64,000 bases of DNA from Bacteroidota bacterium (GTDB lineage: Bacteria > Bacteroidota > Bacteroidia > Bacteroidales > FEN-979), in the NCBI GenBank assembly GCA_026391835.1, contig JAPLDF010000016.1, forward strand, positions 1 to 64,000. The letters run 5' to 3'. The position numbers and the translations under genes were made by a program. How positions within the stretch are numbered: position 1 is the first letter of the stretch; each line of letters starts with the position of its first letter. Positions 6,843-63,384 of this stretch are shown piece after piece. Below the pieces are notes generated by a model. The model had not been told where the DNA came from. It searched no databases and saw nothing but the letters and a program-made list of their open reading frames with translations.

Positions 6843-8450
6843 TTAAAATTTCAGGGCTCCTTTTTCCAGGAGTTCCACTGCTTTTAAAAATCCGGGATCA
6901 ATGGTGTTCAGCACTGGGTAAAAACCGGCGTTATCAAGCATGTTCCTGCCGATGTAGGCCTTGAGCATGGTTTTCACGTACCGGTCTGATTTTGAAAGGT
7001 CTTTTCCATCGTGTTTCACACCTTTTTTTACGGCATACGCAACAAAGTCAGCATAGATCGCATCGGCAACAACGAATCCCGTTTCAAACTGGACAGCAGT
7101 TTTAAAACGCCGCAGCTGGATCCTGTTGCGGTCGGTATAGTCGAAAGCATACTGGTAAACCAACCCCTTGTTGATACATTGCGTATAATAGAACATCGCG
7201 GAGTCCTTCTCGAGCGGTATGAAGATGTCGGGCATGATGCCGCCGCCGCCATAAACCGTCCTGCCTTTCGGCGTTTTGTATTTCAGCGAATCAGGGAACT
7301 TTATTGAATCGGCATGCTCAAGTTCACCATTCATGAAACGGTGGTAAGTATCACTGTTGTATACCTCCAGGCCATCTTTGTAGGATTTCTGGATGCAGCG
7401 CCCGGTGGGGGTGTAATACCGTGCAACCGTAAGCCGCAACGCGCTCCCGTCTTTAAAGTCAAGTTGTTCCTGCACGAGCCCTTTCCCGAATGACCTTCGT
7501 CCAACGATCATCCCCCGGTCATGGTCCTGGATTGCACCCGACACAATTTCAGCAGCCGAGGCAGTTCCCTCATCCACGAGGATGATGAGATCGCCCTTTT
7601 CAAACAACCCGTCGGATGTGGCTTTGGACACTTCCCGCTTATGGTTCATTCCTTCGGTATATACAATCAGGTCATCAGTGCCCAGGAATTCATCCGCAAC
7701 GTCAATGGCAGCTTTCAGGTACCCCCCGCCATTGCTCCGGAGATCAAGGATCAGCTTCTTCATGCCGTCATCCTTCAGGGTTTCAATTGCACGGTGTACC
7801 TCTTCATGGGTTGTGGCTGAAAAATTATTAAGACGGATATACCCGATACCGGGTTCGGGCATGTAGGCAATGTCCATGCTGTAGGTTGGAATGACGTCGC
7901 GGGTGATGGTGAAATCAAGCAACCCCCCGGCGCCTCTTCTGAAAATGGCCACCTTGACCTCGGTGCCTTTGGCACCTTTAAGCTTCCGCATGACATCGTT
8001 GGTTGAGATCTTGATGCCGGCGATATTTTTCCCGTCAACTTTCACGATCCGGTCTCCCGCATGAATGCCAAGTTTTTCTGAAGGCCCCCCTGCGACCGGA
8101 TTTATAACCGTCACCGTGTCGTTCTCAATGCGAAACTGCACCCCGATCCCTTCAAAACTTCCAAGCAGGGGATCATTTGCATCATGAAACTCTTCGGCCG
8201 AAATATACACCGAATGCGGATCAAGCTTTTCAAGCATGCCTGTTATCGCTTTCTCCTCCAGGACCTTCCGGCTCATGGTATCTACATAATTCTCCTCCAC
8301 GTAATTGATTACCTCCTTCAGTTTATCCTTTTGCGAGGCTAGAAGATTGAAGTTTCCGGTACGGTTTCCTAAAAAAATTCCCAGAATTATTCCGCCGATG
8401 AGGACAACGGCAAACCAGATTGGCAAATAGGGATTATTCTTTTTCTCCAT
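6843..8450 (-). CDS. C-terminal processing peptidase (S41A, CtpA/Prc family)
   Basis: A periplasmic serine protease anchored by an N-terminal membrane helix (about residues 11-28). A PDZ domain spans about 95-175 (GIGVQFRIENDTVTVINPV), and the S41 domain follows. The catalytic dyad is Ser298 in GTASAAEIVSG and Lys323 in RRSFGKGLVQ, separated by the canonical 25 residues. The 535-residue length is normal for Bacteroidota tail-specific proteases, which degrade misfolded or C-terminally tagged envelope proteins. It reads on the same strand as sodB with a 62-base gap and is divergent from the hydrolase gene at 8636. Confidence 0.93.
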   Translation of the reverse strand: MEKKNNPYLPIWFAVVLIGGIILGIFLGNRTGNFNLLASQKDKLKEVINYVEENYVDTMSRKVLEEKAITGMLEKLDPHSVYISAEEFHDANDPLLGSFEGIGVQFRIENDTVTVINPVAGGPSEKLGIHAGDRIVKVDGKNIAGIKISTNDVMRKLKGAKGTEVKVAIFRRGAGGLLDFTITRDVIPTYSMDIAYMPEPGIGYIRLNNFSATTHEEVHRAIETLKDDGMKKLILDLRSNGGGYLKAAIDVADEFLGTDDLIVYTEGMNHKREVSKATSDGLFEKGDLIILVDEGTASAAEIVSGAIQDHDRGMIVGRRSFGKGLVQEQLDFKDGSALRLTVARYYTPTGRCIQKSYKDGLEVYNSDTYHRFMNGELEHADSIKFPDSLKYKTPKGRTVYGGGGIMPDIFIPLEKDSAMFYYTQCINKGLVYQYAFDYTDRNRIQLRRFKTAVQFETGFVVADAIYADFVAYAVKKGVKHDGKDLSKSDRYVKTMLKAYIGRNMLDNAGFYPVLNTIDPGFLKAVELLEKGALKF

Positions 8451-8635
8451 GCTGCAAAGATACCATAATTAAAAAAAACGACACCGGGATTCAGATATTG
8501 TATTAAATCATATTGTTCAGAAAGATGAGCATAAAACACATTTGCACCCAGTGCATATGTTTAGAATCCGTATAAATAACCGGGTATGCGCCGCGATCGC
8601 GGAAAAAACCCGATTTTTGCCGAAAATCATGACAC

Positions 8636-9583
8636 ATGAACAAACTGGTGTTGCTTCTATTGCTCATTACTACCCTCAGCGCCCTTGGCCAAATCCCCGG
8701 AGGCGACACACAGGCCGGGCCATATGCAAACAGCCACTTTATTGTCATCGATTCAATTTCTATTCATTACCGGACGTGGAACGATAGTTTGATCAAACCG
8801 AAAGGCAAGGTTTTGCTTATTCACGGGTTTTGCGGATCCACTTTTTGCTGGAGAAACAATTATGATGCGCTTATCCGGGCGGGGTATATGGTGGTGGCCA
8901 TCGATCTGCCTGGTTTTGGATATAGTTCACGCTCGGCAAAGATAAACCAGTCACAAAGCAACAGGGCCCGGCTGATCTGGAATTTGATTGCAGGAATTGA
9001 TCATTCAGATTCATCGAAATGGAACATCGTTGGCCATTCAATGGGCGGGGGCGCTGCAGAGGCTGTTGCGCTTACCAATCCCGGCCGGACAAAAAGCCTG
9101 ACCATCCTCGACGGCATGATCTTTATCAAAAACGACAATGTAAACATGCGTATTGTCGGCCTGGTAAACCTCCCGGTATACAAAAAGCTCCTCCTTTCCT
9201 ATACCGAACACACCTATCTCTCATTCAACAATTTCAGGCGTGAACTGAAAGGCACGTATGGGTTTCTCCCCGACACACTTACGGTAAACGGATATTGGGT
9301 GCCGCTGCAGATAGAGGGAACAGCCGAAACCGTCGTTAACCTGCTGGCCAACTCGAATGAAATCCAACCCCTTGATGCCATTGGACTGGAACAGTTCCCG
9401 GTGTTGGTCATCTGGGGAAAGAAAGACAAGACGATCAGGCTGAAACATGGGAAAAAGCTGAAAAAATACGTCCCGTCCATTGAACTCAGGGTGATCCCGG
9501 ATGCCTATCATATGGCCATGGAAACACATCCCGCGATTTTCAATGCGCTGCTCACCGAATTTCTTGACAGGAACAACCCGTAA
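8636..9583 (+). CDS. Secreted alpha/beta hydrolase
   Basis: A 315-residue alpha/beta-hydrolase-fold enzyme with a signal peptide (residues 1-19, ending LSALGQ). The nucleophile elbow is GHSMGG with Ser135; the oxyanion region LLIHGFCGS precedes it; the acid is in the strand VLVIWGKKDKTI and the base His in PDAYHMAMETHP. The substrate cannot be told from sequence; ester or amide hydrolysis in the periplasm is the safe statement. Upstream, at 8591-8602, there is a perfect 12-base palindrome CCGCGATCGCGG that may be a regulatory site in the divergent promoter region shared with the protease gene. Confidence 0.88.
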   Translation: MNKLVLLLLLITTLSALGQIPGGDTQAGPYANSHFIVIDSISIHYRTWNDSLIKPKGKVLLIHGFCGSTFCWRNNYDALIRAGYMVVAIDLPGFGYSSRSAKINQSQSNRARLIWNLIAGIDHSDSSKWNIVGHSMGGGAAEAVALTNPGRTKSLTILDGMIFIKNDNVNMRIVGLVNLPVYKKLLLSYTEHTYLSFNNFRRELKGTYGFLPDTLTVNGYWVPLQIEGTAETVVNLLANSNEIQPLDAIGLEQFPVLVIWGKKDKTIRLKHGKKLKKYVPSIELRVIPDAYHMAMETHPAIFNALLTEFLDRNNP

Positions 9584-48923: not shown

Positions 48924-51900
48924 ATGAAAATGAAAAAAATATTTACTCATGTTATTATACTGATTCTGAGTTGTATAACCTTTGAGCTTTTTGCTCAGGT
49001 TGGAATCAACAACAGTAACCTCACTCCTGCAGGCAGTGCAATGCTTGATATCTTTTCTACCGATAAAGGACTATTAATTCCACGAATGAGCACTGTAAGC
49101 AGGGATCTCATCCCTTCACCCGCCACGGGGCTCTTGATTTACAACACAACAACAAAATTTTTCAACTATTTCAATGGCGGTGCCTGGTTTAAAATTGAAG
49201 GATCTTTCGTTTCGGCCAATTCAGGATCCTCCAGGCCTGGCGGTGGTGTTTCAGTTTCCGCTCTTCCTACCAAGCTTCCTGACAGTTCAGCCATGCTCGA
49301 TGCGAGCGACCCATCCAGGGGATTTTTACTTACCCGGACCACCCCCGAATCAATTCCAAATCCTGACAATGGATTAATTATCTATGATATATCGGCCAAT
49401 GTCCTCAAATATTTTAGCAACGGAACATGGTACCAGCTATGCGGCTTCACGACAGGCTCTTCAGGAATTACCGGCATTCAGAATTCTGTGGGGGTCGCGA
49501 TCTCTATTAGCAACGCCGCTCCTGATCCTTCAGCGATCCTCGATGTTATTTCGTCCAGCAAAGGGGTTTTAATCCCAAGACTCACAAATGCCCAGCGCAA
49601 TTTGATTGCTCCCGCAACAGGTCTCACGATTTTCAACACAGATTCAAAGGCAATAGAGTATTACAACGGATCTGAGTGGTTCAGGATGAACGTCATGTTT
49701 AATGCAGGTATTTCCATTACCGCCAGCGCCCTGTCGGTTTGTTCCGGATCATCTGTCAATTTTACGGCATTCCCTGAAAACGGGGGAGATCCTCCATCTT
49801 ATCAGTGGAAGGTGAACGGTTTAATTATTTCCGGGGCCACCAATTCGACATTTTCTTATGTGCCGGTCAATTTTGATGCCGTTACATGTGTAATGACTCT
49901 TTCATCGCCCTGTGCCATCGGGAGTCCTGCCATTTCGAATACGATGTTAATGACCGTCAGCCCTATTTTGCCGGTAAGTATCTCAATTTCACCTTCTGTA
50001 AACCCGGTTTGTTCCGGATCACCTGTCACATTCAGCTCATCGGTAACCAACGGAGGCCCGGCTCCCACATTCCAATGGAAGCTCAATGGCTTCCCGATAT
50101 CAGGGGCAACCGGCGCAGCCTATACCTTTGTGCCTGCCAGTACCGGCGTTTATACCTGCACGGTAACTTCAAATGCAACCTGCACTTCAGGAAATCCGGC
50201 AACATCCGGTCCGGTCACGCTCACAGTCACGCCTAACCCAACCGCCGTTGTATCCATAGCCGCTTCGGCAAACCCTGTATGTGCAGGCACCTTGGTTACA
50301 TATACTGCAACAAATGTATCGGGGGGAGGAACAACTCCAGGTTACCAATGGAAGGTAAACAACATCAATGCCGGTTTAAACAGCACCACGTTCAGTTACA
50401 ATCCTGTAAACAATGATGTGATCACCTGTGTGATGACTTCCAGCCTATCATGCGTAACAGGAAGCCCGGCAACATCCAACGCGGTTACCATGACGGTTAA
50501 CCCGCTTTTACCGGCCAGCGTGAGTATTGCAGCCGTTCCTTCAGGACCGGTCTGTACAGGCACTTCGGTTACATTTACCGCCACCCCTGTATTCGGAGGA
50601 GCAGGACCTTTGTACCAATGGAAGAATGGCGCAAACCCGATTGCAGGGGCAACAAATGCATCCTATACTTCCGCCACCCTATCAAATGGCGCAGCAATTA
50701 CTGTGGTGATGACTTCAAATGCCACACCATGTCTGACCGGTTCGCCGGCAACATCCAACCTGATCACCATGACGGTATACCCCGTAACTTCGGTCAACCT
50801 GGTTGCCAATGAAACTTATTGCAACGGAGCAACCACACTGGCAATTGTTTTTAGCAGCCCTGTTTCAGGCACCACCTACGCCTGGACAAACAACACTCCG
50901 GCGATTGGCCTGGCTGCAAACGGAACCGGCAATATCCCTTCATTTACCGCTGCCAACCCCGGAACAGCGCCTGTTATTGCCACCATTACGGTAACCCCGA
51001 CTGCAAACGGTTGTACCGGAATCCCCTTATCCTTTACCATTACCATAAACCCAACCCCGACCGTGAACACGGTTACCAGTCCATCTTATTGCAATGGGGC
51101 CACCACTTCGGCAATCACTTTTGGAAGCCCGGTTTCAGGGGCAACCTATACCTGGGCCAACAACAACCCGTCAATCGGCCTGGCAGCGAATGGAACAGGC
51201 ATCGTTCCTGTATTTACCGCAACCAACCCCGGAACAGCCCCTGAAATTGCAACCATCACGGTAACCCCGACAGCAAACGGATGTATCGGGACACCCCGGT
51301 CGTTTACCATCACCGTAAACCCAACGACAACAGTCTTTACGGTGGGCAATGCCGATTATTGCAATGGCGCAACCACCCTGGCAATCACCTTTGGCAGCCC
51401 TGTGGCAGGTACAACCTACGCCTGGGTTAACAACACCCCATCAATCGGACTGGCTGCAAATGGTACAGGCAACATCCCCGTTTTTACAGCAACCAACCCG
51501 GGAACAGCGCCGGTCATTGCCACCATTACGGTAACTCCCACAGCAAACGGATGCACAGGAACCCCCTTATCGTTCACCATCACCGTAAACCCGACCGCAA
51601 CTGTAAATGCGGTTGGCAATGCAGCTTATTGTAACGGAGCCACCACCCCTGTGATTACTTTTAGCAGCCCTGTTGCAGGAACAACCTATGCATGGGCAAA
51701 CAGCAATCCATCGGTAGGCCTGGCAGCAAACGGAACAGGCAACATCCCTGCATTTACCGCAACCAACCCCGGAACAGCCCCTGAAATTGCAACCATCACG
51801 GTAACCCCGACAGCAAACGGATGTATCGGGACACCCCGGTCGTTTACCATCACCGTAAACCCGACAACAACAGTCTTCGCTGTAGGCAATGCCGATTATT

Positions 51901-54900
51901 GCAACGGAGCCTCCACGTTAGCGATCACCTTTGGCAGCCCGGTAGCTGGTACCACCTACGCCTGGGTCAACAATACCCCGTCAATCGGACTGGCTGCAAA
52001 CGGAACAGGCAACATCCCGGTCTTTACTGCAACCAACTCCGGAACATCCACTGTTATTGCTGCCATCACGGTAACTCCAACTGCAAACGGATGTACCGGA
52101 ACTACTTTAACCTTTGATATCACTGTATACCCGACAACCACTGTTTTCGCGGTGAGCGATGCCACTTATTGCAATGGAGCCGCCGCTTCAGCAATCACCT
52201 TTGGAAGCCCGGTTGCAGGAACCACCTATACCTGGGCCAACAACAACCCTTCAATCGGACTGGCTGCAAACGGAACAGGCAATATTCCATCATTTACCGC
52301 AACCAATACGGGAACAGCACCTGAAATTGCCTCCATCACTGTAATTCCGGCAGCAAACGGTTGTACCGGAACGCCCCGGTCGTTTACCATCACTGTAAAC
52401 CCGACCACGACGGTCTTCCCGGTGGGCAACGAAGCACACTGCAACGGCGCCACCACAGCAGCGATCACGTTAAGCAGCCCTGTTGCAGGAACAACGTATG
52501 CATGGGTTAACAATACACCATCCATCGGACTGGCAGCAAACGGAAACGGGAATATCCCTGTATTTACCGCAACCAACACGGGAACAGCACCTGTGGTTGC
52601 GTCCATTACAGTTACACCAACGGCAAACGGATGCACAGGTATACCTATTTCGTTTACCATTACTGTAAACCCGACCTCCACGGTTTACCAGGTAAGTGAT
52701 GCCGTTTATTGCAATGGAGTTTCAGCCGCAGCGATCACTTTTGGCAGTCCTGTTGCAGGAACTACTTATACATGGGCAAACAACAACCCATCCATCGGAC
52801 TGGCAGCAAACGGAACCGGGAATATCACGTCATTTACAACTACCAACTCCGGAACGGCTCCTGAAATTGCAACCGTCACGGTAACCCCGGCAGCAAACGG
52901 ATGTACCGGTACTCCTTCATCGTTCACAATAACTGTAAACCCGACCGCAACGGTCTTCCCGGTGAGCAATGAAGCATATTGCAATGGTGCGGCCACTGCT
53001 GCCATCACTTTTGGCAGCCCTGTTTCAGGAACAACCTATGCCTGGGTAAACAACACCCCGTCAATCGGCCTGGCACCAAACGGAACCGGTAACATCCCCG
53101 TATTTACAGCAACCAACACGGGAACAGCACCTGAAGTTGCAAACATTACTGTAACTCCCACGGCAAACAGTTGCACAGGAACCCCTTTATCGTTCAGCAT
53201 CACTGTAAACCCCACTGCGACAGTTTACCCGGTGAACAACACCGCTTACTGCAACGAAGCCACTACCGCAACGGTCATCTTTGGCAGCCCGGTGTTGGGA
53301 ACAACTTACGCCTGGGCAAACAACAACCCATCGATCGGCCTGGCCGCTAACGGAACTGGCAATCTTCCTTCATTCACCGCAACCAATACGGGAACAGCCC
53401 CTGAAGTTGCAACCATCACCGTAACACCTACAGCAAACGGATGCACAGGAACACCACTGTCATTTACCATCACCGTAAACCCGACCACAACGGTTTTCGC
53501 TGTGAGCAATGAAACATACTGCAACGGCGCCACAACTGCAGCAATCACTTTTAGCAGCCCTGTTGCAGGAACCACTTATACCTGGTCAAACAACACACTG
53601 TCGATCGGCCTTGAGGCAAGCGGAACCGGCAACCTCCCGGTATTTACGGCAACCAACTCCGGCACTGCACCGGTTATTGCAACCATCACGGTAACTCCTG
53701 CAGCAAACGGGTGCACCGGAATACCTTCATCTTTCACCATTACCGTATACCCTACCGCAACGGTCTTCCCGGTAAGCAATGAAACATATTGCAACGGAGC
53801 TACCACCACACTGGTCACCCTGGGTAGTCCTGTTGCAGGAACCACCTATGCCTGGACAAACAGCACCCCGTCAATTGGCCTTGCTGCAAGCGGAACAGGC
53901 AACATCCCGGTATTTTCGGCCACCAACACGGGGACGGCACCGGTGGTTGCAACCATCGGAATAACCCCGACAGCGAACGGATGCACCGGAACGCCTTCAT
54001 CCTTTACCATCACGATTTACCCGACTGCGACGGTGAACGCTGTAAACGATGCAGTTTATTGCAACGGAGCCCTGACAACACTGGTTACATTGGGCAGTCC
54101 TGTTGCAGGAACTACATATGCATGGACCAACAACACTCCTTCGATCGGCCTTGCAGCAAGCGGAACAGGCAATATTCCTGTATTTACTGCAACCAACCCC
54201 GGAACGGCTCCTGTCGTTGCAACCATCACGATAACTCCGACAGCCAACGGCTGCACCGGAATACCTTCTACTTTTACCATCACGGTAAACCCGACCGCAA
54301 CTGTCAACACAGTTTCGAATGTTGTTTATTGCAATGGAGCCACTGCTGCGGCGATTACCTTTGGCAGTCCGGTCGCAGGCACTACCTTTACCTGGACCAA
54401 CAGCAACGCAACGATCGGGCTGGCAGCCACCGGAACCGGGAACATTGCCTCATTTACGGCCACCAACACCGGTGCCGCACCTGTCATTGCAACTATCACG
54501 GTAACACCGACTGCAAACAACTGCACAGGAACACCGTTGTCGTTTACCATCACCGTAAACCAGTCTTTACCTGCAAGCATTGTGGTGACACCGTCTGCCA
54601 ACAACGTTTGTGCCGGTACATCCGTCACATTCAGCACGGCGATTGTTAATGGAGGATCAACGCCCTTGTATCAATGGAAATTGAACAATGTCAATATTAC
54701 AGGAGCAACCAATGCAACCTATACCTATGTTCCGCTGAATACACAGGTGATCTCATGCGTGCTTACTTCCAACGCGACCTGTGTGACATTAAGTCCGGCC
54801 ACTTCGAACCTGGTAACCATGACTGTTGTCCCACTGGTACCTGTGCGTGCAGGGATTGTTGCTTCACTTTACGCAGTGATGCCGGGAACTTCGGTTACCT

Positions 54901-55727
54901 TCACAGCATCTGTCGAAAACGGTGGCACTTCACCTGTATATCAATGGAAAGTGAATAATGTTGCGGTTGGAACAAACAGCAGCACATACACCTATACACC
55001 GTTAAACAATGACAAAGTAAATTGTGTCATCACTTCGAACAGCACAACTTATTGTTTGTCAAACAACCCTGCTACTTCCAACAGGCTCAGCATGATTGTC
55101 TACGTGACAGGGACTGCCTGCGCAGGGCTCCCCACCGTGTTATTCGACGGGATTACCTACAATACTGTTCAGATCGGCTCGCAATGCTGGCTGAGGGAGA
55201 ATATAAACAGCGGCACCAAGATACCCATCACCACAGCGCAAACAAACAACGCAATTCTTGAAAAGTACTGTTATAACGACTCCCTCATCAACTGCTCCAT
55301 GTACGGTGGTTTGTACCAGTGGAATGAAATGATGCAATATGTTACGACACCCGGAACACAGGGTATCTGTCCGACAGGCTGGCATATCCCGACGGAAGCT
55401 GACTTCATAACCCTGGCAACCACTGCAGGTGGAGTTGCTGTGGCTGGTGGAAAACTGAAAGAAGCCGGATTCGGACATTTCAGGTCACCCAATACCGGTG
55501 CGACCAATGAATTCGGCTTCACGGCATTGCCAACCGGAAGCAGTTTCAACAACGCCGGCAGTATCTTTTATACGAATATATACCAGACCGGCTACTTCCA
55601 TACTTCTACAGATTATCCATCGCCCAACGGGCCTGTTTTCAGGACTGTTTCACTGTCGGTCGCATCTTTTGGCAGTTATTACAATCTCAAGTCGACCGGG
55701 AACCCGGTACGTTGCCTGAAAAACTAA
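48924..55727 (+). CDS. Giant exported repeat protein (PKD-like, Ig-like, FISUMP)
   Basis: A 2267-residue exported protein with a signal peptide (1-24, LFAQ). Three tail-fibre-like units of about 75 residues follow (27-255), each with SAMLD or SAILD and GLLIPR or GVLIPR turns ending in a YFNGG or YYNGS motif. Then come several Ig-like repeats with SVxFTAxxxNGG-x-x-P-x-YQW (about 265-620), fourteen tandem PKD-like repeats of exactly 90 residues (about 620-1880) with YCNGA, W-x-NN-x-PSIGLAANGTGNIPxFTATN and NGCTG-x-PxSFTITVNP, two more Ig-like repeats, and a C-terminal FISUMP domain (about 2080-2267) starting VLFDGITYNTVQIGSQCWLREN. No T9SS type A tail is seen; FISUMP proteins lack one as a rule. 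A long fibrous adhesin or surface structure is inferred. Confidence 0.93.
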   Translation: MKMKKIFTHVIILILSCITFELFAQVGINNSNLTPAGSAMLDIFSTDKGLLIPRMSTVSRDLIPSPATGLLIYNTTTKFFNYFNGGAWFKIEGSFVSANSGSSRPGGGVSVSALPTKLPDSSAMLDASDPSRGFLLTRTTPESIPNPDNGLIIYDISANVLKYFSNGTWYQLCGFTTGSSGITGIQNSVGVAISISNAAPDPSAILDVISSSKGVLIPRLTNAQRNLIAPATGLTIFNTDSKAIEYYNGSEWFRMNVMFNAGISITASALSVCSGSSVNFTAFPENGGDPPSYQWKVNGLIISGATNSTFSYVPVNFDAVTCVMTLSSPCAIGSPAISNTMLMTVSPILPVSISISPSVNPVCSGSPVTFSSSVTNGGPAPTFQWKLNGFPISGATGAAYTFVPASTGVYTCTVTSNATCTSGNPATSGPVTLTVTPNPTAVVSIAASANPVCAGTLVTYTATNVSGGGTTPGYQWKVNNINAGLNSTTFSYNPVNNDVITCVMTSSLSCVTGSPATSNAVTMTVNPLLPASVSIAAVPSGPVCTGTSVTFTATPVFGGAGPLYQWKNGANPIAGATNASYTSATLSNGAAITVVMTSNATPCLTGSPATSNLITMTVYPVTSVNLVANETYCNGATTLAIVFSSPVSGTTYAWTNNTPAIGLAANGTGNIPSFTAANPGTAPVIATITVTPTANGCTGIPLSFTITINPTPTVNTVTSPSYCNGATTSAITFGSPVSGATYTWANNNPSIGLAANGTGIVPVFTATNPGTAPEIATITVTPTANGCIGTPRSFTITVNPTTTVFTVGNADYCNGATTLAITFGSPVAGTTYAWVNNTPSIGLAANGTGNIPVFTATNPGTAPVIATITVTPTANGCTGTPLSFTITVNPTATVNAVGNAAYCNGATTPVITFSSPVAGTTYAWANSNPSVGLAANGTGNIPAFTATNPGTAPEIATITVTPTANGCIGTPRSFTITVNPTTTVFAVGNADYCNGASTLAITFGSPVAGTTYAWVNNTPSIGLAANGTGNIPVFTATNSGTSTVIAAITVTPTANGCTGTTLTFDITVYPTTTVFAVSDATYCNGAAASAITFGSPVAGTTYTWANNNPSIGLAANGTGNIPSFTATNTGTAPEIASITVIPAANGCTGTPRSFTITVNPTTTVFPVGNEAHCNGATTAAITLSSPVAGTTYAWVNNTPSIGLAANGNGNIPVFTATNTGTAPVVASITVTPTANGCTGIPISFTITVNPTSTVYQVSDAVYCNGVSAAAITFGSPVAGTTYTWANNNPSIGLAANGTGNITSFTTTNSGTAPEIATVTVTPAANGCTGTPSSFTITVNPTATVFPVSNEAYCNGAATAAITFGSPVSGTTYAWVNNTPSIGLAPNGTGNIPVFTATNTGTAPEVANITVTPTANSCTGTPLSFSITVNPTATVYPVNNTAYCNEATTATVIFGSPVLGTTYAWANNNPSIGLAANGTGNLPSFTATNTGTAPEVATITVTPTANGCTGTPLSFTITVNPTTTVFAVSNETYCNGATTAAITFSSPVAGTTYTWSNNTLSIGLEASGTGNLPVFTATNSGTAPVIATITVTPAANGCTGIPSSFTITVYPTATVFPVSNETYCNGATTTLVTLGSPVAGTTYAWTNSTPSIGLAASGTGNIPVFSATNTGTAPVVATIGITPTANGCTGTPSSFTITIYPTATVNAVNDAVYCNGALTTLVTLGSPVAGTTYAWTNNTPSIGLAASGTGNIPVFTATNPGTAPVVATITITPTANGCTGIPSTFTITVNPTATVNTVSNVVYCNGATAAAITFGSPVAGTTFTWTNSNATIGLAATGTGNIASFTATNTGAAPVIATITVTPTANNCTGTPLSFTITVNQSLPASIVVTPSANNVCAGTSVTFSTAIVNGGSTPLYQWKLNNVNITGATNATYTYVPLNTQVISCVLTSNATCVTLSPATSNLVTMTVVPLVPVRAGIVASLYAVMPGTSVTFTASVENGGTSPVYQWKVNNVAVGTNSSTYTYTPLNNDKVNCVITSNSTTYCLSNNPATSNRLSMIVYVTGTACAGLPTVLFDGITYNTVQIGSQCWLRENINSGTKIPITTAQTNNAILEKYCYNDSLINCSMYGGLYQWNEMMQYVTTPGTQGICPTGWHIPTEADFITLATTAGGVAVAGGKLKEAGFGHFRSPNTGATNEFGFTALPTGSSFNNAGSIFYTNIYQTGYFHTSTDYPSPNGPVFRTVSLSVASFGSYYNLKSTGNPVRCLKN
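50785..54565 (+). repeat. Fourteen in-frame 270-bp repeats with 540-bp higher-order pattern
   Basis: The motif coding YCNGA recurs at 50817, 51087, 51357 and so on to 54327 with a constant period of 270 bases and no indel. Within repeats 2-9 a two-unit alternation is seen: NNNPSIGL with APEIA against NNTPSIGL with APVIA. Repeats 2 and 4 share a stretch of about 115 identical bases (51212-51330 and 51752-51870), which implies recent duplication or gene conversion of a two-repeat block. Confidence 0.95.
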
Positions 55728-55743: not shown

Positions 55744-55804
55744 AAAGGAGTAAGACCATCTTGAAATTCCTGTGAATTTCAAGATGGTCTTACTCCTTTT
55801 TTTG
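55744..55804 (+). terminator. Rho-independent terminator with long perfect stem
   Basis: Perfect 25-base arms at 55744-55768 and 55775-55799 enclose a 6-base loop (CCTGTG) and are followed by a run of T on the plus strand, giving efficient termination after the giant gene. The arms also end in A/T tracts on the minus strand, so the hairpin can act on transcripts of the hydrogenase-like operon too. Confidence 0.93.
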
Positions 55805-55851: not shown

Positions 55852-56688
55852 TTACAACCTGCCGATCAAATCAAGCACACCATTGATGAAGGTGAGCGGA
55901 TGGGGCGGATTCCCCGGAACATACAGGTCTACATAATGGTGATTGAGGAAAGTCCGGTTCAATGCGGGACTTCCACTGAATATCCCGCTGCTGATGGCAT
56001 CGGTACCTGCCAATATGATTATTTTGGGTGTAGGAATCGCATCATAACAAATCTGAAGGGCTTCAGCCATATTTTCCGAAATGGGTCCGGTAATGACAAT
56101 CCCGTCAGCATGGCGCGGTGATGCAACGAATTCAATACCATACCTGCCCATGTCGAAGTTCACATTGCCGGCAGCATTCAGTTCCATTTCGGTTGAATTA
56201 TCACCACCTGCCGAAACCTGCCGCAGTTTCAACGCATGTTTGAAAAATGAACGGATCTCCTTGCGCACCTTCCCAGGATCAAGCCCTGCAGGTTGATCCC
56301 CGCCGGAAACAACTACAAGCCGCTCGCGGACATTGGTGGCCATTTTATAATCGCCGGTAAACCTTATTTTGCCGGGGAGCGCAAATTCACACTCCCGGCA
56401 AAACACGCATTTACCAAGATCAATGGTATATAATCCATGATCCGCGTCAGGATTGGCAGGAAGCAAGCCGACAGCCCCGGTGGGGCAGAGGTTCATTGCA
56501 AGATGCCCTTCGGCCGGAGTGATATAGTGGCCGATGACCGGCTTCCCGCGAAAAATTTCCGGCAGGCGGACTTTACGAAGGTCGGGTACATATTGACTGC
56601 CATGTCGGCGGAATATGTTTATCTCTTTCAGGGGCATCGGTTCATTAAAATTAATTGCTACATCCAAACTTACAGGTCGTTCCCGCAA
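55852..56688 (-). CDS. Ferredoxin-NuoB-like fusion subunit without proximal-cluster cysteines
   Basis: A 278-residue peripheral subunit of the operon's membrane complex, corresponding to HyfH and HyfI of hydrogenase 4 (NuoI and NuoB of complex I) joined in one chain. The N-terminal half (1-125) is ferredoxin-like but keeps only Cys68 (LCPTGAV) and Cys94/97/100 (CVFCREC), enough for one 4Fe-4S cluster. The C-terminal half (about 145-278) has the NuoB fold with PRHADG, but the four N2-type ligands are replaced: GSCxxCE by GGDNSTE (Asp163, Thr166), GACA by GTDA (Asp230) and PGCPP by PGNPP (Asn260). The protein overlaps the large subunit gene by 19 bases. It therefore cannot hold the usual cluster next to the active site. 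Confidence 0.88.
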   Translation of the reverse strand: MRERPVSLDVAINFNEPMPLKEINIFRRHGSQYVPDLRKVRLPEIFRGKPVIGHYITPAEGHLAMNLCPTGAVGLLPANPDADHGLYTIDLGKCVFCRECEFALPGKIRFTGDYKMATNVRERLVVVSGGDQPAGLDPGKVRKEIRSFFKHALKLRQVSAGGDNSTEMELNAAGNVNFDMGRYGIEFVASPRHADGIVITGPISENMAEALQICYDAIPTPKIIILAGTDAISSGIFSGSPALNRTFLNHHYVDLYVPGNPPHPLTFINGVLDLIGRL

Positions 56689-58208
56689 TAACTCAGGTTA
56701 AAGCTTTTATTGCACAGCGGGAAATCCGAGATTTCCTGGTTTCTCACGGCAAGCGCCAGGGCCATCCAGTTGTGAAATGACGGATCTTTGGCCTTGTAAT
56801 GAATCATCTTTCCCGAATCGCCGGTGACTGCAATATGACAAATCTCTCCCCGCCAGCCTTCCACCATTGAAATGGCCAGGGATGAAGGAGCCAGGCTGAG
56901 ATCGTATATAGGATTTTCGATTTTCGATTTTCGATTTTCGATTTCGGTCGATGTAAAAGTCCTGATCAATTCCCGGATGACCTCCATTGATTTCTCCACT
57001 TCCCTTTTACGCAGCATGGCTCTTGACCACACGTCGCCCTTGTGCAGCATCACCGGTTCATACCGGTGACCGGCATACGCCGAAAATGGGTGTGACCACC
57101 TGATATCCCGGTACATGCCGCTGCTTTTCGCGGCCATTCCTACGGCACCGATGAGGGAAGCCTGCATGGTTGTCAGTTTCCCGGTTCCCTCAAAACGACC
57201 AAGGGCACTTGGCAAGGAGAAGATCCTGTCGGTAACCTGGACATAGCGCTCCTCAACATCCTTCAGGTTTTTCAATATCTCAGCGATGGTTGCACCGGAA
57301 AGCGGGTAGTGGCTTCCGCCCGGGCGCACCAGCCCTTTTCCAAACCGGTTGCCGCACCACAACTGTGTCGTATTGATGACAATGGTCCGCAGGGCTTCGT
57401 TCACCACCTGGCCCAGCTGGTAAGCGATATCGGTACACAGCGCGGCTGTATCGCCGATGTGCATGGCTATCCGTTCAAGTTCGAGGGCGATTACGCGTTC
57501 AGCAGATAAATAAGGAGGAACCACAATGCCTGCAAGTGATTCAACTACGCCGGCATAGGCCATTGAGTGACCAACGGCAGTGTCGCCTGCAATGCTTTCG
57601 GCAAGGAGCGACTGGTGCAAAATACCCGGCTTTTCAATAAACAAATGCTCCACGCCGCGATGCTGGTACCCCAGCTGAATTTCAAGGTGCAACACCTGTT
57701 CGCCATGGCATATAAACCGGAAATGACCTGGTTCGATAATACCGGCGTGGACCGGTCCGACGCCTACTTCATGAAGTTCCTCCCCGTCGATGGAAAAGAA
57801 GGGATAATTGTTCATGATCCTTGATTGATCTGCCCTGTCGAAAGGATAGCGGACGGGTTTCATCCAGGGATGCTCCCGGAAGGTAATCCCGAAATTTTCA
57901 TGGATCTCCCGTTCGAACGCATGAAACTGGAAGTGCCTGGCAGTGAGCGATTGCAAAGAAAGTGAAGGTTCCAGAGGCTGTTCGTGCGAAAAGATCAGGA
58001 GCGCATGGTTTTCATCGGCAGCCATGCAACAGATAAACCGGTATGTATCCGGCTTGGGAAGCACAAAATAGGAAACACAATGGGTGCCCTCCTCCCCCAT
58101 CAACAAATCAACAAATGCCGAAAATTCAGGATATTGCAATACTGGGATATCAGCAAGTTTTACTGTCCCGGGGTTTGTAAGGATCTCGATGTATCTCTGG
58201 TCCATCAT
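56670..58208 (-). CDS. NuoC/D-like large subunit lacking NiFe ligands
   Basis: A 512-residue fusion of a NuoC-type domain (about 1-130, with FEREIHENFGITFREHP) and a NuoD/HyfG-type domain. The ATG at 58208, which overlaps the upstream stop codon as TAATG, is preferred to the frame's extra upstream 38 residues. At the N-terminal NiFe site the usual E-R-I-C-G-I-C is E-S-I-A-G-D-T (residues about 204-210), and the C-terminal D-P-C-x-x-C is absent (FPLCNKSFNLSYCGNDL), so all four metal-binding cysteines are missing. A repeat array codes EIENRKSKIENP in the loop at about 436-447. The subunit groups with energy-converting hydrogenase-related (Ehr) complexes rather than true hydrogenases. Confidence 0.88.
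   Translation of the reverse strand: MMDQRYIEILTNPGTVKLADIPVLQYPEFSAFVDLLMGEEGTHCVSYFVLPKPDTYRFICCMAADENHALLIFSHEQPLEPSLSLQSLTARHFQFHAFEREIHENFGITFREHPWMKPVRYPFDRADQSRIMNNYPFFSIDGEELHEVGVGPVHAGIIEPGHFRFICHGEQVLHLEIQLGYQHRGVEHLFIEKPGILHQSLLAESIAGDTAVGHSMAYAGVVESLAGIVVPPYLSAERVIALELERIAMHIGDTAALCTDIAYQLGQVVNEALRTIVINTTQLWCGNRFGKGLVRPGGSHYPLSGATIAEILKNLKDVEERYVQVTDRIFSLPSALGRFEGTGKLTTMQASLIGAVGMAAKSSGMYRDIRWSHPFSAYAGHRYEPVMLHKGDVWSRAMLRKREVEKSMEVIRELIRTFTSTEIENRKSKIENPIYDLSLAPSSLAISMVEGWRGEICHIAVTGDSGKMIHYKAKDPSFHNWMALALAVRNQEISDFPLCNKSFNLSYCGNDL
56911..56946. repeat. In-frame GATTTTC array inside the large subunit gene
   Basis: Four to five copies of GATTTTC run as GGATTTTCGATTTTCGATTTTCG over 56911-56946, giving ENRKSKIEN in the protein's reading frame. 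The array resembles the intergenic units at 44775 and 12703 and interrupts the otherwise conserved C-terminal region of the subunit. Confidence 0.85.
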
Positions 58209-59656
58209 TATTTCGGCAGTGACTGAATGATTGATGCGATAAGTTGCCGCAAAGGCTCCGGCTGAACAAAACAGATAAAAATGACCAGCCCGAATAAGAC
58301 ATATTGACTGGCTGATTGCCACGGGTTGACCTTGTACTGCTCATGAAGTGGTTTTTCGCGCGGCTGGGAATATACGATATGCAGCACCCTCGTAAGCAGC
58401 GCATACAATACAAAGCAGAGCAGCAGGGCGGTCACTCCCAGCAGCAAATAATCATGGGAGCCTACCATGGCCTTCATCAGGTATAGTTCGGATATGAACA
58501 TGCCGGATGGCGGGATGGCGGTGATGCACAAAAACCCCAAAAGCAGGGCGGTAGCGCCGGCCGGGTAGAGTGCCATATAATTCCCGGATTCGTCGAGTTT
58601 ATAGGTTCCCATCACTTTGTACGATTGCCCCATCTGGTAGAACAAACCCGCTTTTGTAAATGAGTGAAGTACGATGTGGAGAATGGCTGCATAGTAACCT
58701 ATTCCTCCCACACCAAGGGCGATGGCAACAATTCCCATGTTTTCGAGGCTCGAATAGGCCAGCATGCGTTTGTTGTGTTTGGCCTTGAGCATATATCCCG
58801 CAGATACGAGCAACGACAATACCCCTGACAGGATCAGCACATGGTTCATGAAGGGCAGGATGGTGGTGGCCGAGAACAGGGCATAGATCCGGAAAATGGC
58901 GAGAAACCCAACATTCATCAGGGTTGTGGATATGAATGCACTGATTGGCGGTGGTGAAACCGTATGGGCATCCACTGTGACGGTGTGCATTGGGAAAAGT
59001 CCCATCTTGGTGCTGTATCCCACCAGGACAAATACAAATGAGATTTTCAGGTAGAGCGGGTTGGCCATTCTTGCTATTTCAGAGATGCTGTCGAAGGAGA
59101 GGTGAAGCAAACGGGCATCATGCACGGTAAATCCGAGGAAGAGGATCCCGAGGTATGCAAGGGCTATCCCAACCGAACAAACAAAGACATATTTCCAGGT
59201 AGCCTCCAGCGCCATCGGGGTACGGTCGTGGTAAATGAGGGCTGCCACAGCCAGCGTGGTTGCTTCAACAAAGATCCAGACGGTGGTCATCCCATTTGCA
59301 AGGTAGGCTCCCGACATGGCTGCAACAAGGGCAATGAGCGCGGCGTGATAGATGGAATAGACCCGGTTCCCGGCATCCTTTACATAGATGAAGCCATGAT
59401 AAACGGTTGTGATGGTGAGTATTGACAGGATTGACAGCAACAACACACCGAGCGGATCGAAGGTAAAATAATCAAGCACCGTCTCACCCAGGTGAAGCCA
59501 TGCATACCCAGAGAAGGCAATATGGGTGGCAACATAGAGGATGGTCAGGATCCGCGCCAGCGGCTTGTGATGCACCAGTCCGACAACAGCACCCGTGAGG
59601 AGCGAAATCACAAAAAAACCAATCAATATGTACCCTGATCCGGCCATTAAAATCAT
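58208..59656 (-). CDS. Proton-translocating antiporter-like subunit (HyfF/NuoN type)
   Basis: A 482-residue membrane protein with about 14 membrane segments of the NuoL/M/N (Mrp antiporter) family. Key residues in the conduction path are in TTVWIFVEATTLAVAAL with the conserved Glu, GYSTKMGLFPMHT with the broken-helix Lys, and KHNKRMLAYSSLENMG with the second Lys/His. Position in the operon and length correspond to HyfF. Its stop overlaps the start of the large subunit gene by one base. An alternative start lies at Met4 (59647). Confidence 0.9.
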   Translation of the reverse strand: MILMAGSGYILIGFFVISLLTGAVVGLVHHKPLARILTILYVATHIAFSGYAWLHLGETVLDYFTFDPLGVLLLSILSILTITTVYHGFIYVKDAGNRVYSIYHAALIALVAAMSGAYLANGMTTVWIFVEATTLAVAALIYHDRTPMALEATWKYVFVCSVGIALAYLGILFLGFTVHDARLLHLSFDSISEIARMANPLYLKISFVFVLVGYSTKMGLFPMHTVTVDAHTVSPPPISAFISTTLMNVGFLAIFRIYALFSATTILPFMNHVLILSGVLSLLVSAGYMLKAKHNKRMLAYSSLENMGIVAIALGVGGIGYYAAILHIVLHSFTKAGLFYQMGQSYKVMGTYKLDESGNYMALYPAGATALLLGFLCITAIPPSGMFISELYLMKAMVGSHDYLLLGVTALLLCFVLYALLTRVLHIVYSQPREKPLHEQYKVNPWQSASQYVLFGLVIFICFVQPEPLRQLIASIIQSLPK

Positions 59657-59733
59657 TTTCTACCGATGATTCCGCACCTGCGCCGCGGAAAATTAACAAT
59701 TTCCTTCATTGTTTGCATTGTTTTCATTGCCTG

Positions 59734-60351
59734 TCAATCATCCTTAAGCATCGTCAACTCATGTGCACTTTGCTTCAGGCGCATCACGAATATTCCCAGG
59801 ATCAGCACGCTGACAAAAATATCGAGCAGGATGCCGATGTTGATCAGCATGGGCATTTCGCTGCCGATGGCAAGGGAAAGTAACAAAACGGCATTCTCAA
59901 TGACCAGGAATCCAACCAGGTGGGAAAATATTTTCTTATGTGAAATGATCATAAAGAGCCCGGTATACACGGCAAAAAAGGCAACGATGAAGTATATCAT
60001 GTTTTCCGGCGTCGTGTTCATTGAAAAGGAGACCACGATGCTCAGCAGAAGTCCGAGGGTGATGAACAGCAGCGAATAAAACCCCGGCAGCGCTTTGTCG
60101 TGCACCCTGGCTTCACCGGTTTTGCTTATAATCCGGAATAACAGATACGGAACAACGATCACCTTGAAAACCAGCGTTTCAAGTGCAACGAAAATCAAGG
60201 TTGCAAGGGTGATGGCGTGCAGTTCAAGAAATGACAGGATGAATAGCAATGCCCCCTGGAACCCGATGAGCCCGGCATATACCGGGAACCGCTCGGTCAT
60301 GCTGAGGTAGATCAGTGTGATGGCAAACATTATGATAATCAATACATTCAT
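59734..60351 (-). CDS. HyfE-like membrane subunit
   Basis: A 205-residue membrane protein with six helices, corresponding in length and context to HyfE, which combines NuoK-like features. Helix 3-4 contains KVIVVPYLLFRI and the later region SHKKIFSHLVGFLVIENAVLLLSLAIG, with the Glu of NuoK-type subunits in LVIENAVLL. It starts where the HyfC-like gene ends, with a 1-base overlap at 60351. Role: membrane proton path between the peripheral arm and the large antiporter subunits. Confidence 0.88.
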   Translation of the reverse strand: MNVLIIIMFAITLIYLSMTERFPVYAGLIGFQGALLFILSFLELHAITLATLIFVALETLVFKVIVVPYLLFRIISKTGEARVHDKALPGFYSLLFITLGLLLSIVVSFSMNTTPENMIYFIVAFFAVYTGLFMIISHKKIFSHLVGFLVIENAVLLLSLAIGSEMPMLINIGILLDIFVSVLILGIFVMRLKQSAHELTMLKDD

Positions 60352-61337
60352 TAATCAACCATTTTAAACGTGATCAACAATACCAGGATAAATGCTACCA
60401 GGGCGATCGAACTCAGGGTAACGATGAATTGCGGGTTCCGAACAAGTTTCTTCCGCGCCCTGAATGACTCCATCAAACCGATCAGCGATGCAAACACAGC
60501 CTGTATCATAAAATAAACGCCAACCTGCATCACCACCATCCATCCTGAACCCACATTGTGCAACATTCCTTTTTCACCGTTCATCAGCAACTGTTCACTG
60601 TTCGCTATAAGCTGTCCGCCATCCACCGGGACCAGGAAGTTGGCGATGAGCAGTCCGTACATGGCAAATTTCAGGGCGGTGCCAATTTGTATCAGTGCCA
60701 GGTCAAATCCGCTATGGTCAAGGATCATCACCTCATGGATCATGGTGAGTTCTAAATGCGTTTTCGGATCATCCACCGGCATGCGGCTGTTTTCGATCAT
60801 GGCGATCTGGATCAGCAGGTAAACTGCGATAAACCCGATGATGAACGCGTTGTGCCCGGTAAACTGGAACGATTCAAATATTTGCTGCATGGAGGTATGG
60901 CCGGTAAGCAATGCCAGCGTACCAAACAAGATAAAGAAAGCCGGTTCGGCCAGCATGGAGTAGAGTGCTTCTCGGTTGGCCCCCATTCCTTCAAAACTGC
61001 TCCCTGTGTCTAGTGCACCCAGGATGAACATGAATTTGCCGAGTGCGAGCAGGTAGGCAAAGAGGACAAAGTCGCCGTTAAAGCCAAACAACGATGGCAT
61101 TCCCGGGAAGGGGAGCAACAGCATGGCGCAGATAATGGTCGACAAATAGATTGCCGGGGCAATTTGAAAGATGTAACTCGTGGTGGTACTGAATACGCTT
61201 CCTTTGCGCAACAGCACCAGGATGTTTTTCCAGGGCTGCAGGATGCCGGGTCCTTTCCGGCCACTGGCAATGCTCTTTATCCGCAGGATCAATCCCGGGA
61301 AAAAGACGGCAGTAACGATGGCAAGCAAAAAACCCAT
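60351..61337 (-). CDS. HyfC/NuoH-like membrane subunit
   Basis: A 328-residue protein with about eight membrane helices. ILRIKSIASGRKGPGILQPWKNIL is typical of the NuoH/HyfC N-terminus, and PVDDPKTHLELTMIHEVMILDHSG is the conserved loop carrying acidic residues that face the quinone/active-site channel (EMTMxHE-type). It links the membrane arm to the large/small subunit pair. It is in the middle of the operon with 1-base overlaps on both sides. Confidence 0.92.
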   Translation of the reverse strand: MGFLLAIVTAVFFPGLILRIKSIASGRKGPGILQPWKNILVLLRKGSVFSTTTSYIFQIAPAIYLSTIICAMLLLPFPGMPSLFGFNGDFVLFAYLLALGKFMFILGALDTGSSFEGMGANREALYSMLAEPAFFILFGTLALLTGHTSMQQIFESFQFTGHNAFIIGFIAVYLLIQIAMIENSRMPVDDPKTHLELTMIHEVMILDHSGFDLALIQIGTALKFAMYGLLIANFLVPVDGGQLIANSEQLLMNGEKGMLHNVGSGWMVVMQVGVYFMIQAVFASLIGLMESFRARKKLVRNPQFIVTLSSIALVAFILVLLITFKMVD

Positions 61338-63319
61338 TATAATATGTTCAGATAGAGTAAAATAAAAATGATCAGCATGAAGACGAAGGCATATAAAATA
61401 TAGTGCTGGATATTGCCTGTTTGCAGCCGCGCAATTTTTTTCAACGCCAGCATGGAGTAATCGGTGATCTTCGTGAGCACTGTCCGGAATACATCTGCCG
61501 GCCGGAGCGTGAAGGAGCGTTTGGCCGGGAAGATGTCTTCTTCATGAATATCCCTGTATTCAATCTTTTTGGCAAAAACCGGGTTGGCAAGTTCGGCAAA
61601 ATTCGAGGCGTATGACGTTGCTGTGTACTGCTGACGGGAGGTTCCCGCAGTATAGCCACATCCCCAGGTGGGGCCGTATACCACTTTACCCGGTTTCATG
61701 ACCGCTTTTCGAAGGATCATCATCGCCACCACCACCAGGATGAAGATGATTCCCATGAGGCTCATCTTTGACAGGGTGTGGACCAGGGGCAGCACAATTG
61801 GTTCAGGATTCAGCTGAAACTGTGCACCGATCATGCCAAACAGTGGCAGGAGAAATAACACCGGGGCCAGCCCGATCAGCAGTATGACGGACGCGATCAG
61901 CAGTTTCGGAAACAACATTGCCGGGCTCACTGCATTTACATCAACATGGATCTCTGATCGGGATGATCCCAGGAAGGTTAGTCCGAAAGCCTTTGAAAAC
62001 CCGAAGAGGGCCAGCCCGCCGATGAGGGCCAGGGCGATGATTGACATCATCATCGACATGGTCTGAAAAACTGTACTTGCCTGCATTCCGGCGAAGAGAC
62101 CGTAATAAATGAGAATTTCCGAGATAAACCCGTTGAGCGGCGGCATGGCGCAGATGGCCATGGAACCGAACAGGAACAGCGCTGCCGTGCGGGGCATCCT
62201 GTGAATCAAACCGCCCAGTTGTTCGATGTTGCGGGTATGTGTGGCTTTATACACCGAACCTGCGCAATAAAAGAGCAATGACTTGAAAAGAGAGTGGTTC
62301 AAAACATGGAACAAACCTCCACCAAATCCAAGGATCATGAGTACAGGGCTGTGCGCTCCCATGCCAAGGGCGCCCATACCAAGCCCCATCCCTATGATCC
62401 CAACATTCTCGATGGTTGAATATGCAAGCAGTTTTTTAAGGTCGGTTTGTACGATCGACATCATGATCCCGTACAACCCGGTCAGGGTGGCGATGATCAT
62501 CATGATGATGCCAATGAGGTAGGCATCGGACTGGACAAAGGTGAGGATGCGGACAATGCCAAAAATCCCCATCTTGATCATCACGCCCGACATGACGCCC
62601 GAAACATGCGACGGGGCTGCAGGATGCGCCTCGGGAAGCCATGTGTGAAACGGCACAAACCCGGCTTTCACTGCAAAACCGGCAAAGAACAGGAAGAAGA
62701 TGGGAAGGTTTGGATGGCTGGCAAAGTACAGTTGCAATCCATCAAAACCGAAATGCCCGGTGGATACTTCCGCCAGCAGGAAGCCAATGATCAGCAACAC
62801 CAACCCGACGTGCATCTGGATCAGGTAATTGACAGCTGTTTTCAGCGTAGTTCTTTTCTCAGCTTCAAAAAGTATCAGCATAAATGACGAAACGGCCATC
62901 AGTTCCCAGGCAATCAGGAATGACGTGCCATCGCGCAGCATCAGGACACTCAGCATGGAGAGGTGCAGCCAGGAGTAACTGAAATAATGCAATGCAAACT
63001 GGGCGGGCGTTTTTGTTAACCTGTATGATTCAAGGTACCCGTTAGAATAGAGCAACCCGGTGAGAACGGTAAAATTGGTTACCAGGATGAAAAAAGCGCT
63101 GAGACTGTCGATCGTGAACGCAATCGTACCCAGGAAACCACCGGCAATAAAGGTTTGCACGGGGCCGGCGGGATGAACCAACGCTTCAGCTGCTGGCACC
63201 GATGTCAACAGGATTATAAAAATGGTAACCCCAAGCGTATATATATAGCGTATCCCGGAAGGGACAACCAGGATGAAAAATGTGAGGATAACCGATGCAA
63301 AAATGGCAATATTGTCCAT
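61337..63319 (-). CDS. HyfB/NuoL-like proton-translocating subunit, first gene of the operon
   Basis: A 660-residue membrane protein from the start MDNIAIFASVI; 11 residues of upstream frame, beginning with GTG, look untranslated. It belongs to the NuoL/HyfB antiporter family: IAWELMAVSSFMLILFEAEKR with the pore Glu, FAVKAGFVPFHTWLPEAHPAAP with the broken-helix Lys, and DLKKLLAYSTIENVGIIGMGLG. About 16-17 helices are present, and the C-terminal part ends in a hydrophobic helix. It opens the six-gene operon. The intact conduction residues contrast with the metal-less peripheral arm. Confidence 0.92.
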   Translation of the reverse strand: MDNIAIFASVILTFFILVVPSGIRYIYTLGVTIFIILLTSVPAAEALVHPAGPVQTFIAGGFLGTIAFTIDSLSAFFILVTNFTVLTGLLYSNGYLESYRLTKTPAQFALHYFSYSWLHLSMLSVLMLRDGTSFLIAWELMAVSSFMLILFEAEKRTTLKTAVNYLIQMHVGLVLLIIGFLLAEVSTGHFGFDGLQLYFASHPNLPIFFLFFAGFAVKAGFVPFHTWLPEAHPAAPSHVSGVMSGVMIKMGIFGIVRILTFVQSDAYLIGIIMMIIATLTGLYGIMMSIVQTDLKKLLAYSTIENVGIIGMGLGMGALGMGAHSPVLMILGFGGGLFHVLNHSLFKSLLFYCAGSVYKATHTRNIEQLGGLIHRMPRTAALFLFGSMAICAMPPLNGFISEILIYYGLFAGMQASTVFQTMSMMMSIIALALIGGLALFGFSKAFGLTFLGSSRSEIHVDVNAVSPAMLFPKLLIASVILLIGLAPVLFLLPLFGMIGAQFQLNPEPIVLPLVHTLSKMSLMGIIFILVVVAMMILRKAVMKPGKVVYGPTWGCGYTAGTSRQQYTATSYASNFAELANPVFAKKIEYRDIHEEDIFPAKRSFTLRPADVFRTVLTKITDYSMLALKKIARLQTGNIQHYILYAFVFMLIIFILLYLNIL

Positions 63320-63357: not shown

Positions 63358-63384
63358 AAAAAAAGCCCCCTCCCTGGGGGAGGG
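63358..63384 (-). terminator. Terminator of the T9SS protein gene
   Basis: Read on the minus strand, arms CCCTCCC and GGGAGGG flank a 3-base loop and are followed by CTTTTTTT. It directly follows the stop codon at 63385 and precedes the hydrogenase-like operon, which therefore must have its own promoter within a short span (63320-63357). Confidence 0.85.

Follow-up and report, generated by a model that had tools for sequence, protein, structure and literature searches.

An operon of the energy-converting hydrogenase-related type in Bacteroidales without ligands for the NiFe centre and the N2 cluster

The window analysed here comprises the 64,000 nucleotides at positions 1 to 64,000 of contig JAPLDF010000016.1 (assembly GCA_026391835.1, a Bacteroidota bacterium of the Bacteroidales, FEN-979). 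From 63319 to 55852 its minus strand carries an operon of six intact reading frames in the order hyfB-C-E-F-large-small. The first encodes a hyfB-like antiporter subunit (P0006, 660 amino acids (aa), 61337-63319, Pfam Proton_antipo_M, best NCBIfam row hydrogenase 4 subunit B). It is followed by genes for a hyfC/NuoH-like subunit (P0005, 328 aa, 60351-61337, Pfam NADHdh), a hyfE-like membrane subunit (P0004, 205 aa, 59734-60351), a hyfF-like antiporter subunit (P0003, 482 aa, 58208-59656, Pfam Proton_antipo_M, NCBIfam row hydrogenase 4 subunit F), a NuoC-D/HyfG-like large subunit (56670-58208, which is P0002 minus its first residue, Pfam Complex1_49kDa) and a small subunit (P0001, 278 aa, 55852-56688). 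Pfam recognises five of the six products. The exception is the hyfE-like subunit, which matches the NCBIfam hydrogenase 4 membrane subunit with E 1.5e-11. The NCBIfam rows are those of hydrogenase-4 and complex I subunits, and every row shown, including those of P0006, P0004 and P0003, scores below its curated cut-off. A group-4 hydrogenase-like large subunit without NiFe ligands occurs here together with antiporter-like, HyfC-, HyfE-, large and small subunit genes. Judged by its sequence, the operon is therefore of the energy-converting hydrogenase-related (Ehr) type, i.e., it has the group-4 hydrogenase fold without NiFe ligands.

In the large subunit, the first NiFe motif is replaced by ESIAGDT (residues 205-211 of P0002, 57579-57599, minus strand) and the second by LSYCGNDL (56673-56696, minus strand). 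The C-terminus reads NKSFNLSYCGNDL and has no CxxC, so that neither of the two NiFe-binding CxxC motifs of group-4 NiFe hydrogenases is present. The former metal pocket is highly conserved: E205, D210, N501, S503, S507, G510 and D512 are invariant in 58 aligned large subunits, irrespective of whether the small subunit has N2 ligands (see below). The AlphaFold2 model of the large subunit has a confidence score (predicted local distance difference test, pLDDT) of 91.6, and its best Foldseek match is HycE of formate hydrogenlyase (FHL; 7z0s_E). Altogether, the predicted folds, obtained with high confidence, resemble FHL, Mbh and complex I subunits; the alignments for structure prediction comprised 73 of 110 small subunits and 58 of 86 long large subunits. 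An in-frame short repeat (56912-56944, 7 bp, 4.7 copies) encodes IENRKSKIEN in the large subunit.

In the small subunit, a HyfH-like ferredoxin domain is fused to a HyfI/NuoB domain. Residues ~37-126 match weakly the NuoI and FHL ferredoxin models, and residues 167-273 match NuoB. Its AlphaFold2 model has a pLDDT of 92.6, and Foldseek matches it to 6cfw_J (root-mean-square deviation 1.9 over 129 columns). Residue numbers refer to the TTG at 56688, but the alternative ATG at 56637, which corresponds to residue 18, is the likelier start, judging by the point at which the alignments with relatives set in. In an alignment with E. coli HyfH and HyfI, D163 (codon 56200-56202), T166, D230 (codon 55999-56001) and N260 (codon 55909-55911; all on the minus strand) occupy the four columns of the cysteines that ligate the proximal cluster, N2. 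The alignment places no other cysteine in the ligand columns. The complex I NuoB of the same genome retains its cysteines in this alignment, with the adjacent CC pattern. Since all four ligand positions are cysteine-free, the window has neither the N2 cluster of complex I nor a proximal cluster on three cysteines as found in the MBS sulfane sulfur reductase.

The ferredoxin half retains C68, C94, C97 and C100 (codons within 56389-56487, minus strand), and it has lost the first three cysteines of motif 1 and the 'CP' cysteine of motif 2. In 2[4Fe-4S] ferredoxins, one cluster is held by three cysteines from one motif plus the final one from the other. According to this bookkeeping, one complete, N6b-like [4Fe-4S] site is predicted, and none of the ligands of the other, N6a-like cluster remain. 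The large subunit, small subunit and ferredoxin of the Hyf type together hold four metal centres; three of these, NiFe, N2 and the N6a-like cluster, are missing here, as their ligands are gone.

Most of this had been proposed in a reading of the sequence alone (the sequence-only reading). Both motif losses in the large subunit, the four replaced residues in the small subunit, which hold column by column against E. coli HyfI, and the Ehr type of a complex devoid of both NiFe and N2 ligands are borne out. The fusion in the small subunit and the loss of one ferredoxin cluster had been missed, as had the ordered nature of the replacement, its sharing across a whole clade, its occurrence at least twice and the frequent duplication of hyfB that are described below.

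To place the operon, relatives were collected from 60 relative genomes and the window's own genome, as well as from a scan of named-species genomes that yielded at least 582 matches, of which the best 80 were kept. At E 1e-10, 51 of the 61 genomes match, many of them with ordinary NuoB. Two loci that are the window itself (L003 and L005) were dropped before counting; L017 and L036, apparently one record from two collections, were both counted. Among the resulting 110 small subunits, 36 have all four N2 cysteines (N2-bearing), 73 including that of the window belong to the window's N2-less clade, and one, L034, stands apart. It is the small subunit of locus L116 and was counted as N2-less in some comparisons, which then comprise 74 instead of 73 sequences. 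The N2-bearing group includes Gastranaerophilales, Ignavibacteriales, Geomonas, Lentisphaeria, Aminicenantes, Magnetobacteriaceae, Extensimonas and some Bacteroidota. All named loci of the window's clade are from Bacteroidota, except for L075 (Spirochaetia) and L076 (Phycisphaerae). The gene order hyfB-C-E-F-large-small is found in relatives, too.

Within the window's clade, the replacements are nearly fixed: D163 is present in 71/73, D230 in 67/73 and N260 in 72/73 sequences. Only position 166 is variable, with Cys in 44/73 and any of eight residues in the others. At the codon level, with the window omitted and L034 included, GAY is used at 163 in 71/73 rows and at 230 in 67/73, and AAY at 260 in 71/73. 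Both GAY and AAY are two base changes away from the Cys codons TGY. C68, C94, C97 and C100 are present in all 109 sequences that have a ferredoxin domain. By a simple cysteine count, all eight ferredoxin cysteines are kept in 19 of the 36 N2-bearing, but in only two of the 73 N2-less sequences (L050 and L072). This suggests that in the window's clade N2 was probably lost before the N6a-like cluster.

When a tree is built from the two peripheral subunits after masking of the ligand columns (98 tips including the outgroup, rooted on E. coli Hyf), all 65 N2-less tips are monophyletic (ultrafast bootstrap (UFBoot) 100) and nested within N2-bearing Ehr; 13 of the 110 small subunits were omitted as they had no large partner of at least 380 aa. 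In this tree, which was built without the published Ehr sequences themselves, the loci around the window's clade include some from Gastranaerophilales and Geomonas. L050 and L072 form the sister branch of the remaining clade here and fall inside the window's half in a second tree (63 tips, of which the 27 N2-less ones were hand-picked). At a 70% threshold, only positions 163, 165, 229, 230 and 260 of the small subunit are fixed differences between N2-bearing and N2-less sequences. Positions 163 and 260 had been used to define the two groups, but 165, 229 and 230 had not. In the large subunit, positions 44, 150, 235, 288, 292, 303, 480 and 484 differ at 75%. Positions 288 and 292 flank a hand-placed column that we take to be that of the complex I histidine near N2. 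Of 14 comparisons, 12 give a ratio of nonsynonymous to synonymous substitutions (dN/dS) of 0.06-0.15, and the other two are saturated. The pattern of substitutions argues that the N2 change is an ordered replacement, not decay.

A second, independent loss is found in L116 (536-7752), an Ehr operon with the order small-hyfB-C-E-F-large from one genome of the window's order. At the four N2 positions, its small subunit reads D, C, D and D. This subunit lacks a ferredoxin domain, and the 618 bases before its gene hold no ferredoxin-like frame of at least 30 aa. Of the relatives found, L156 and L157 (in regions L166 and L167) are the nearest, with 58-59% identity, and they keep all N2 cysteines and a ferredoxin domain. 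In the tree, L166/L167 form the deepest branch and L116 the next one, ahead of all remaining N2-bearing and N2-less sequences; both nodes have UFBoot 100. This rules out that L116 is kin of the window's clade. It means that N2 was lost at least twice, both times to acidic or amide residues at positions 163, 230 and 260. The L116 lineage would thus have a peripheral arm without any predicted metal cluster, albeit as a single case: further L116-like genes were found neither in 295 genomes of the order nor in 6 of its own family nor in 395 of the phylum (thresholds E 1e-20, 1e-26 and 1e-30; not all hits in the 295 genomes became loci). L147 was considered as a second case without ferredoxin domain. 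Its frame begins at the end of the locus, so that it is probably cut off.

The membrane arm keeps its channel residues in both groups. HyfB E139, K218, K249 and K346, HyfC E123, E131, E182, E196 and E202, and HyfF E131, K217, E305 and K335 are conserved in N2-bearing and N2-less loci, and so are the channel residues of HyfE. This agrees with the claim of the sequence-only reading that the membrane subunits keep their key charged residues. The HyfC gene of the window (60351-61337) encodes an extra ANSEQLLMNGE-type stretch that is not present in the relatives shown. Among loci with a readable hyfB, two tandem copies are found in 14 of 23 N2-less, but in only one of 25 N2-bearing loci. In the N2-less loci L041, L043, L045, L046, L051, L052, L054, L057, L058, L061, L062, L066, L069 and L071, a second full hyfB-type gene is located directly upstream of hyfB. 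Nine of 11 key hyfB positions are identical across both copies of all 15 loci, and the remaining two vary in one copy. The window itself has one hyfB, and loci that end short upstream cannot reveal a second one.

Beside the window's operon, neither SulP nor EIIA genes are present. Convergent to it, a frame of 2267 aa (48924-55727) holds 13.9 copies of a 270-bp repeat. Terminator-like hairpins were found by a consensus scan only, one at the boundary between the operon and the convergent gene (55748-55795, no strand assigned) and one upstream of the operon (63366-63384, minus strand); the scan found 17 in total vs 9.3 expected. Besides the operon itself, no gene cluster occurs in more than four of the 44 named N2-less loci. 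Genes of at least 120 aa within 2.5 kb of the loci were assigned to Pfam families (134 of 134 and 124 of 127, with three omitted as long or operon-like). In both tallies, the 25 families shown, out of about 150, do not include formate dehydrogenase; rarer partners are possible. Around the 36 N2-bearing loci, the commonest Pfam family is PTS_EIIA_2 (8 members), followed by SulP (4). In nine N2-bearing loci (L080, L085, L090, L094, L096, L099, L100, L102 and L115), hyfB is overlapped or directly adjoined by a gene of the EIIA cluster, and the Pfam identity was confirmed in five of five EIIA genes scanned singly. A SulP gene follows two N2-less operons, L047 and L056, and in L167 a SulP-STAS-EIIA protein is encoded between the large and small subunit genes (6921-9137). 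We regard this tie of Ehr to anion transport as a lead only.

At the level of whole genomes, the sequence-only reading had seen no hyp maturation genes. This is correct for the window, but not for the genome, which encodes HypD outside it. Furthermore, a sequence on contig C73 of the genome matches the NiFe-hydrogenase large-subunit family at full length. An MnhE subunit was not found in the window's genome. Among 295 genomes of the order there are 68 Ehr hits at E 1.5e-29, which include the N2-bearing type and the genome of L116. With kinship ignored, Ehr is commoner where Rnf/Nqr is absent (18/29 vs 50/266, Fisher p 2e-6; 14/25 vs 50/266 without the window's family) and where a heme-copper oxidase gene scores above cut-off (44/129 vs 24/166). 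The link to Rnf/Nqr absence is seen among oxidase-positive genomes (17/22 vs 27/107), but not among the rest (1/7 vs 23/159). No association between Ehr and MnhE was found in the 295 genomes (14/72 vs 54/223). The co-occurrence with Rnf/Nqr absence and oxidase is likewise considered a lead only.

The pocket signature, the ion-channel residues and one [4Fe-4S] site are kept under purifying selection. Since the N2 cluster is swapped for fixed acidic or amide residues, the complex is probably driven otherwise than by the usual electron wire. We tentatively favour, short of calling it probable, a working complex I-like complex of the Ehr family that has abandoned the usual chain of ferredoxin clusters, N2 and pocket, and whose peripheral arm couples to or gates the movement of ions. 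The membrane arm would still move H+ or Na+ ions, with the peripheral arm serving as a coupling or gating domain. A non-redox ligand bound or converted in the conserved former NiFe/quinone pocket might drive or gate ions via the HyfC Glu path. Alternatively, occupancy of the new Asp/Asp/Asn site could be the trigger. The lone [4Fe-4S] cluster may be a redox sensor or structural. That this is a machine of the complex I family without electron transfer through the former active site, perhaps without any, in which a non-redox ligand is coupled to ions and Asp/Asp/Asn replaces N2, is possible but doubtful. Several observations weigh against non-redox coupling. One ferredoxin cluster is kept in all 109 fused sequences, which suggests some redox role, direct or regulatory. 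The 14 N2-less loci with two hyfB genes share kinship and are, therefore, not independent cases. Fixed differences between the two groups also occur in HyfC (3 positions), HyfE (2), HyfF (7) and HyfB (4). Finally, N2-less L057 has molybdopterin-oxidoreductase-type genes 1.2 kb downstream, and in N2-less L075 two genes of the NuoE-NuoF type lie within 2.5 kb.

The fixed, convergent Asp/Asp/Asn-or-Asp set where the cluster ligands meet in the same fold would also suit a mononuclear redox metal, e.g. Fe or Mn, bound by D163, D230 and N260 (and C166 where present). The wire would then run from the N6b-type cluster via the metal to the pocket, which is kept like the adjacent cluster, and the complex would still be an electron-driven pump, passing its electrons to some acceptor. 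This appears unlikely, as position 166 is free to vary (nine residues among 73 sequences) and L116 has no ferredoxin domain to supply electrons. An unusual Fe-S cluster, held at the N2 site by Asp/Asn, water or backbone and transferring electrons as in other Ehr, has a precedent in MBS, whose proximal cluster on three cysteines has non-cysteine ligation (PMC7684303). In our clade, however, three of the four positions are cysteine-free in 73/73 and all four in 29/73 sequences, and we consider such a cluster quite improbable.

Electrons might also enter the lone N6b-type cluster and pass directly to a nearby ligand, quinone or partner protein, which would turn the complex into a redox pump whose acceptor site is new. 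The retention of the cluster in all fused members, its possible exposure by loss of the outer cluster and the NuoE-NuoF-type genes in L075 speak for it. Relay steps in this superfamily, however, are below 14 A (FHL, PMC9474812), the gap to the pocket would be longer without N2, and a recurrent partner gene was not found beside N2-less loci. On balance, direct transfer seems rather unlikely. The evidence tilts, without proof, to non-redox coupling as opposed to new electron entry; the sequence-only reading had rightly posed this question of the driver. Simultaneous loss of several cofactors would be the expected first sign of a decaying hydrogenase-like remnant, and a sequencing or assembly error might mimic it. 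Both are hardly credible: the six frames are intact, the replacements are shared by 72 other sequences, the channel and pocket residues are conserved, and the shared replacements together with the low dN/dS contradict them. The refutation that the sequence-only reading had named for itself, by frameshifts or base errors with cysteines in close homologues or by other cysteines in the ligand positions, fails in view of the intact frames, the 72 relatives and the ligand columns.

The central open question of complex I is by what means redox chemistry at N2 and in the quinone pocket drives proton channels at a distance. An N2-less family that retains pocket and channels, and that can be compared with an N2-bearing sister group, makes it possible to ask which parts of the coupling machinery work without N2.

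Among known systems, Ehr complexes are the closest. They have been described as devoid of NiFe ligands (PMC6349859, PMC4378227, PMC7304191, PMC10432482, PMC10284858), and several of these papers term their function unknown; PMC6349859 suggests a link between formate dehydrogenase and Ehr. A hyfBCEFGI cluster is non-hydrogenase according to PMC7735108, and one is a putative group-4 hydrogenase according to PMC5596200. Ehr has been reported from Melainabacteria, bacteria of the candidate phyla radiation (CPR), Sulfobacillus, comammox Nitrospira and ammonia-oxidising archaea. The window's operon shares with Ehr the order hyfB-C-E-F-large-small and the missing NiFe motifs. Unlike Ehr as described in the passages available, in which only the NiFe ligands are lost, it and its clade also lack the N2 ligands and, for the most part, the outer ferredoxin cluster. 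It has no N2-type cluster as in 36 of the 110 relatives, and no definition of Ehr that requires one was found in the passages available. These passages do not mention cluster loss in the small subunit; an earlier mention is possible, and as far as our searches reach, the N2-less variant is apparently undescribed.

E. coli hydrogenase-4 and formate hydrogenlyase (Hyf, Hyc) are alike in subunit types and folds, but the window's operon is without NiFe ligands, N2 ligands and HyfA/HyfD, has one ferredoxin cluster and fuses the ferredoxin and NuoB parts. MBS from Pyrococcus furiosus is also a group-4 relative that lost NiFe activity; in contrast to our complex, its proximal cluster on three cysteines serves as catalyst (PMC7684303). 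Complex I (NuoB, NuoCD, NuoH, NuoL/M/N) shares the large and small subunit folds, the HyfC Glu path and the antiporter-like subunits, whereas our complex has no N2, no NADH module in its operon and a pocket sequence of the Ehr kind. The DAB2 CO2 uptake complex, for which coupling of a complex I-type channel subunit to a non-redox cytoplasmic reaction is proposed (PMC13144422), is a working analogy only. Mrp Na+/H+ antiporters have antiporter-like subunits as well, and their Glu/Lys residues are found in ours; being common to complex I, these do not permit an Mrp assignment by themselves. Mrp exchanges ions without electron transfer and, unlike the complex described here, does so without large and small peripheral subunits.

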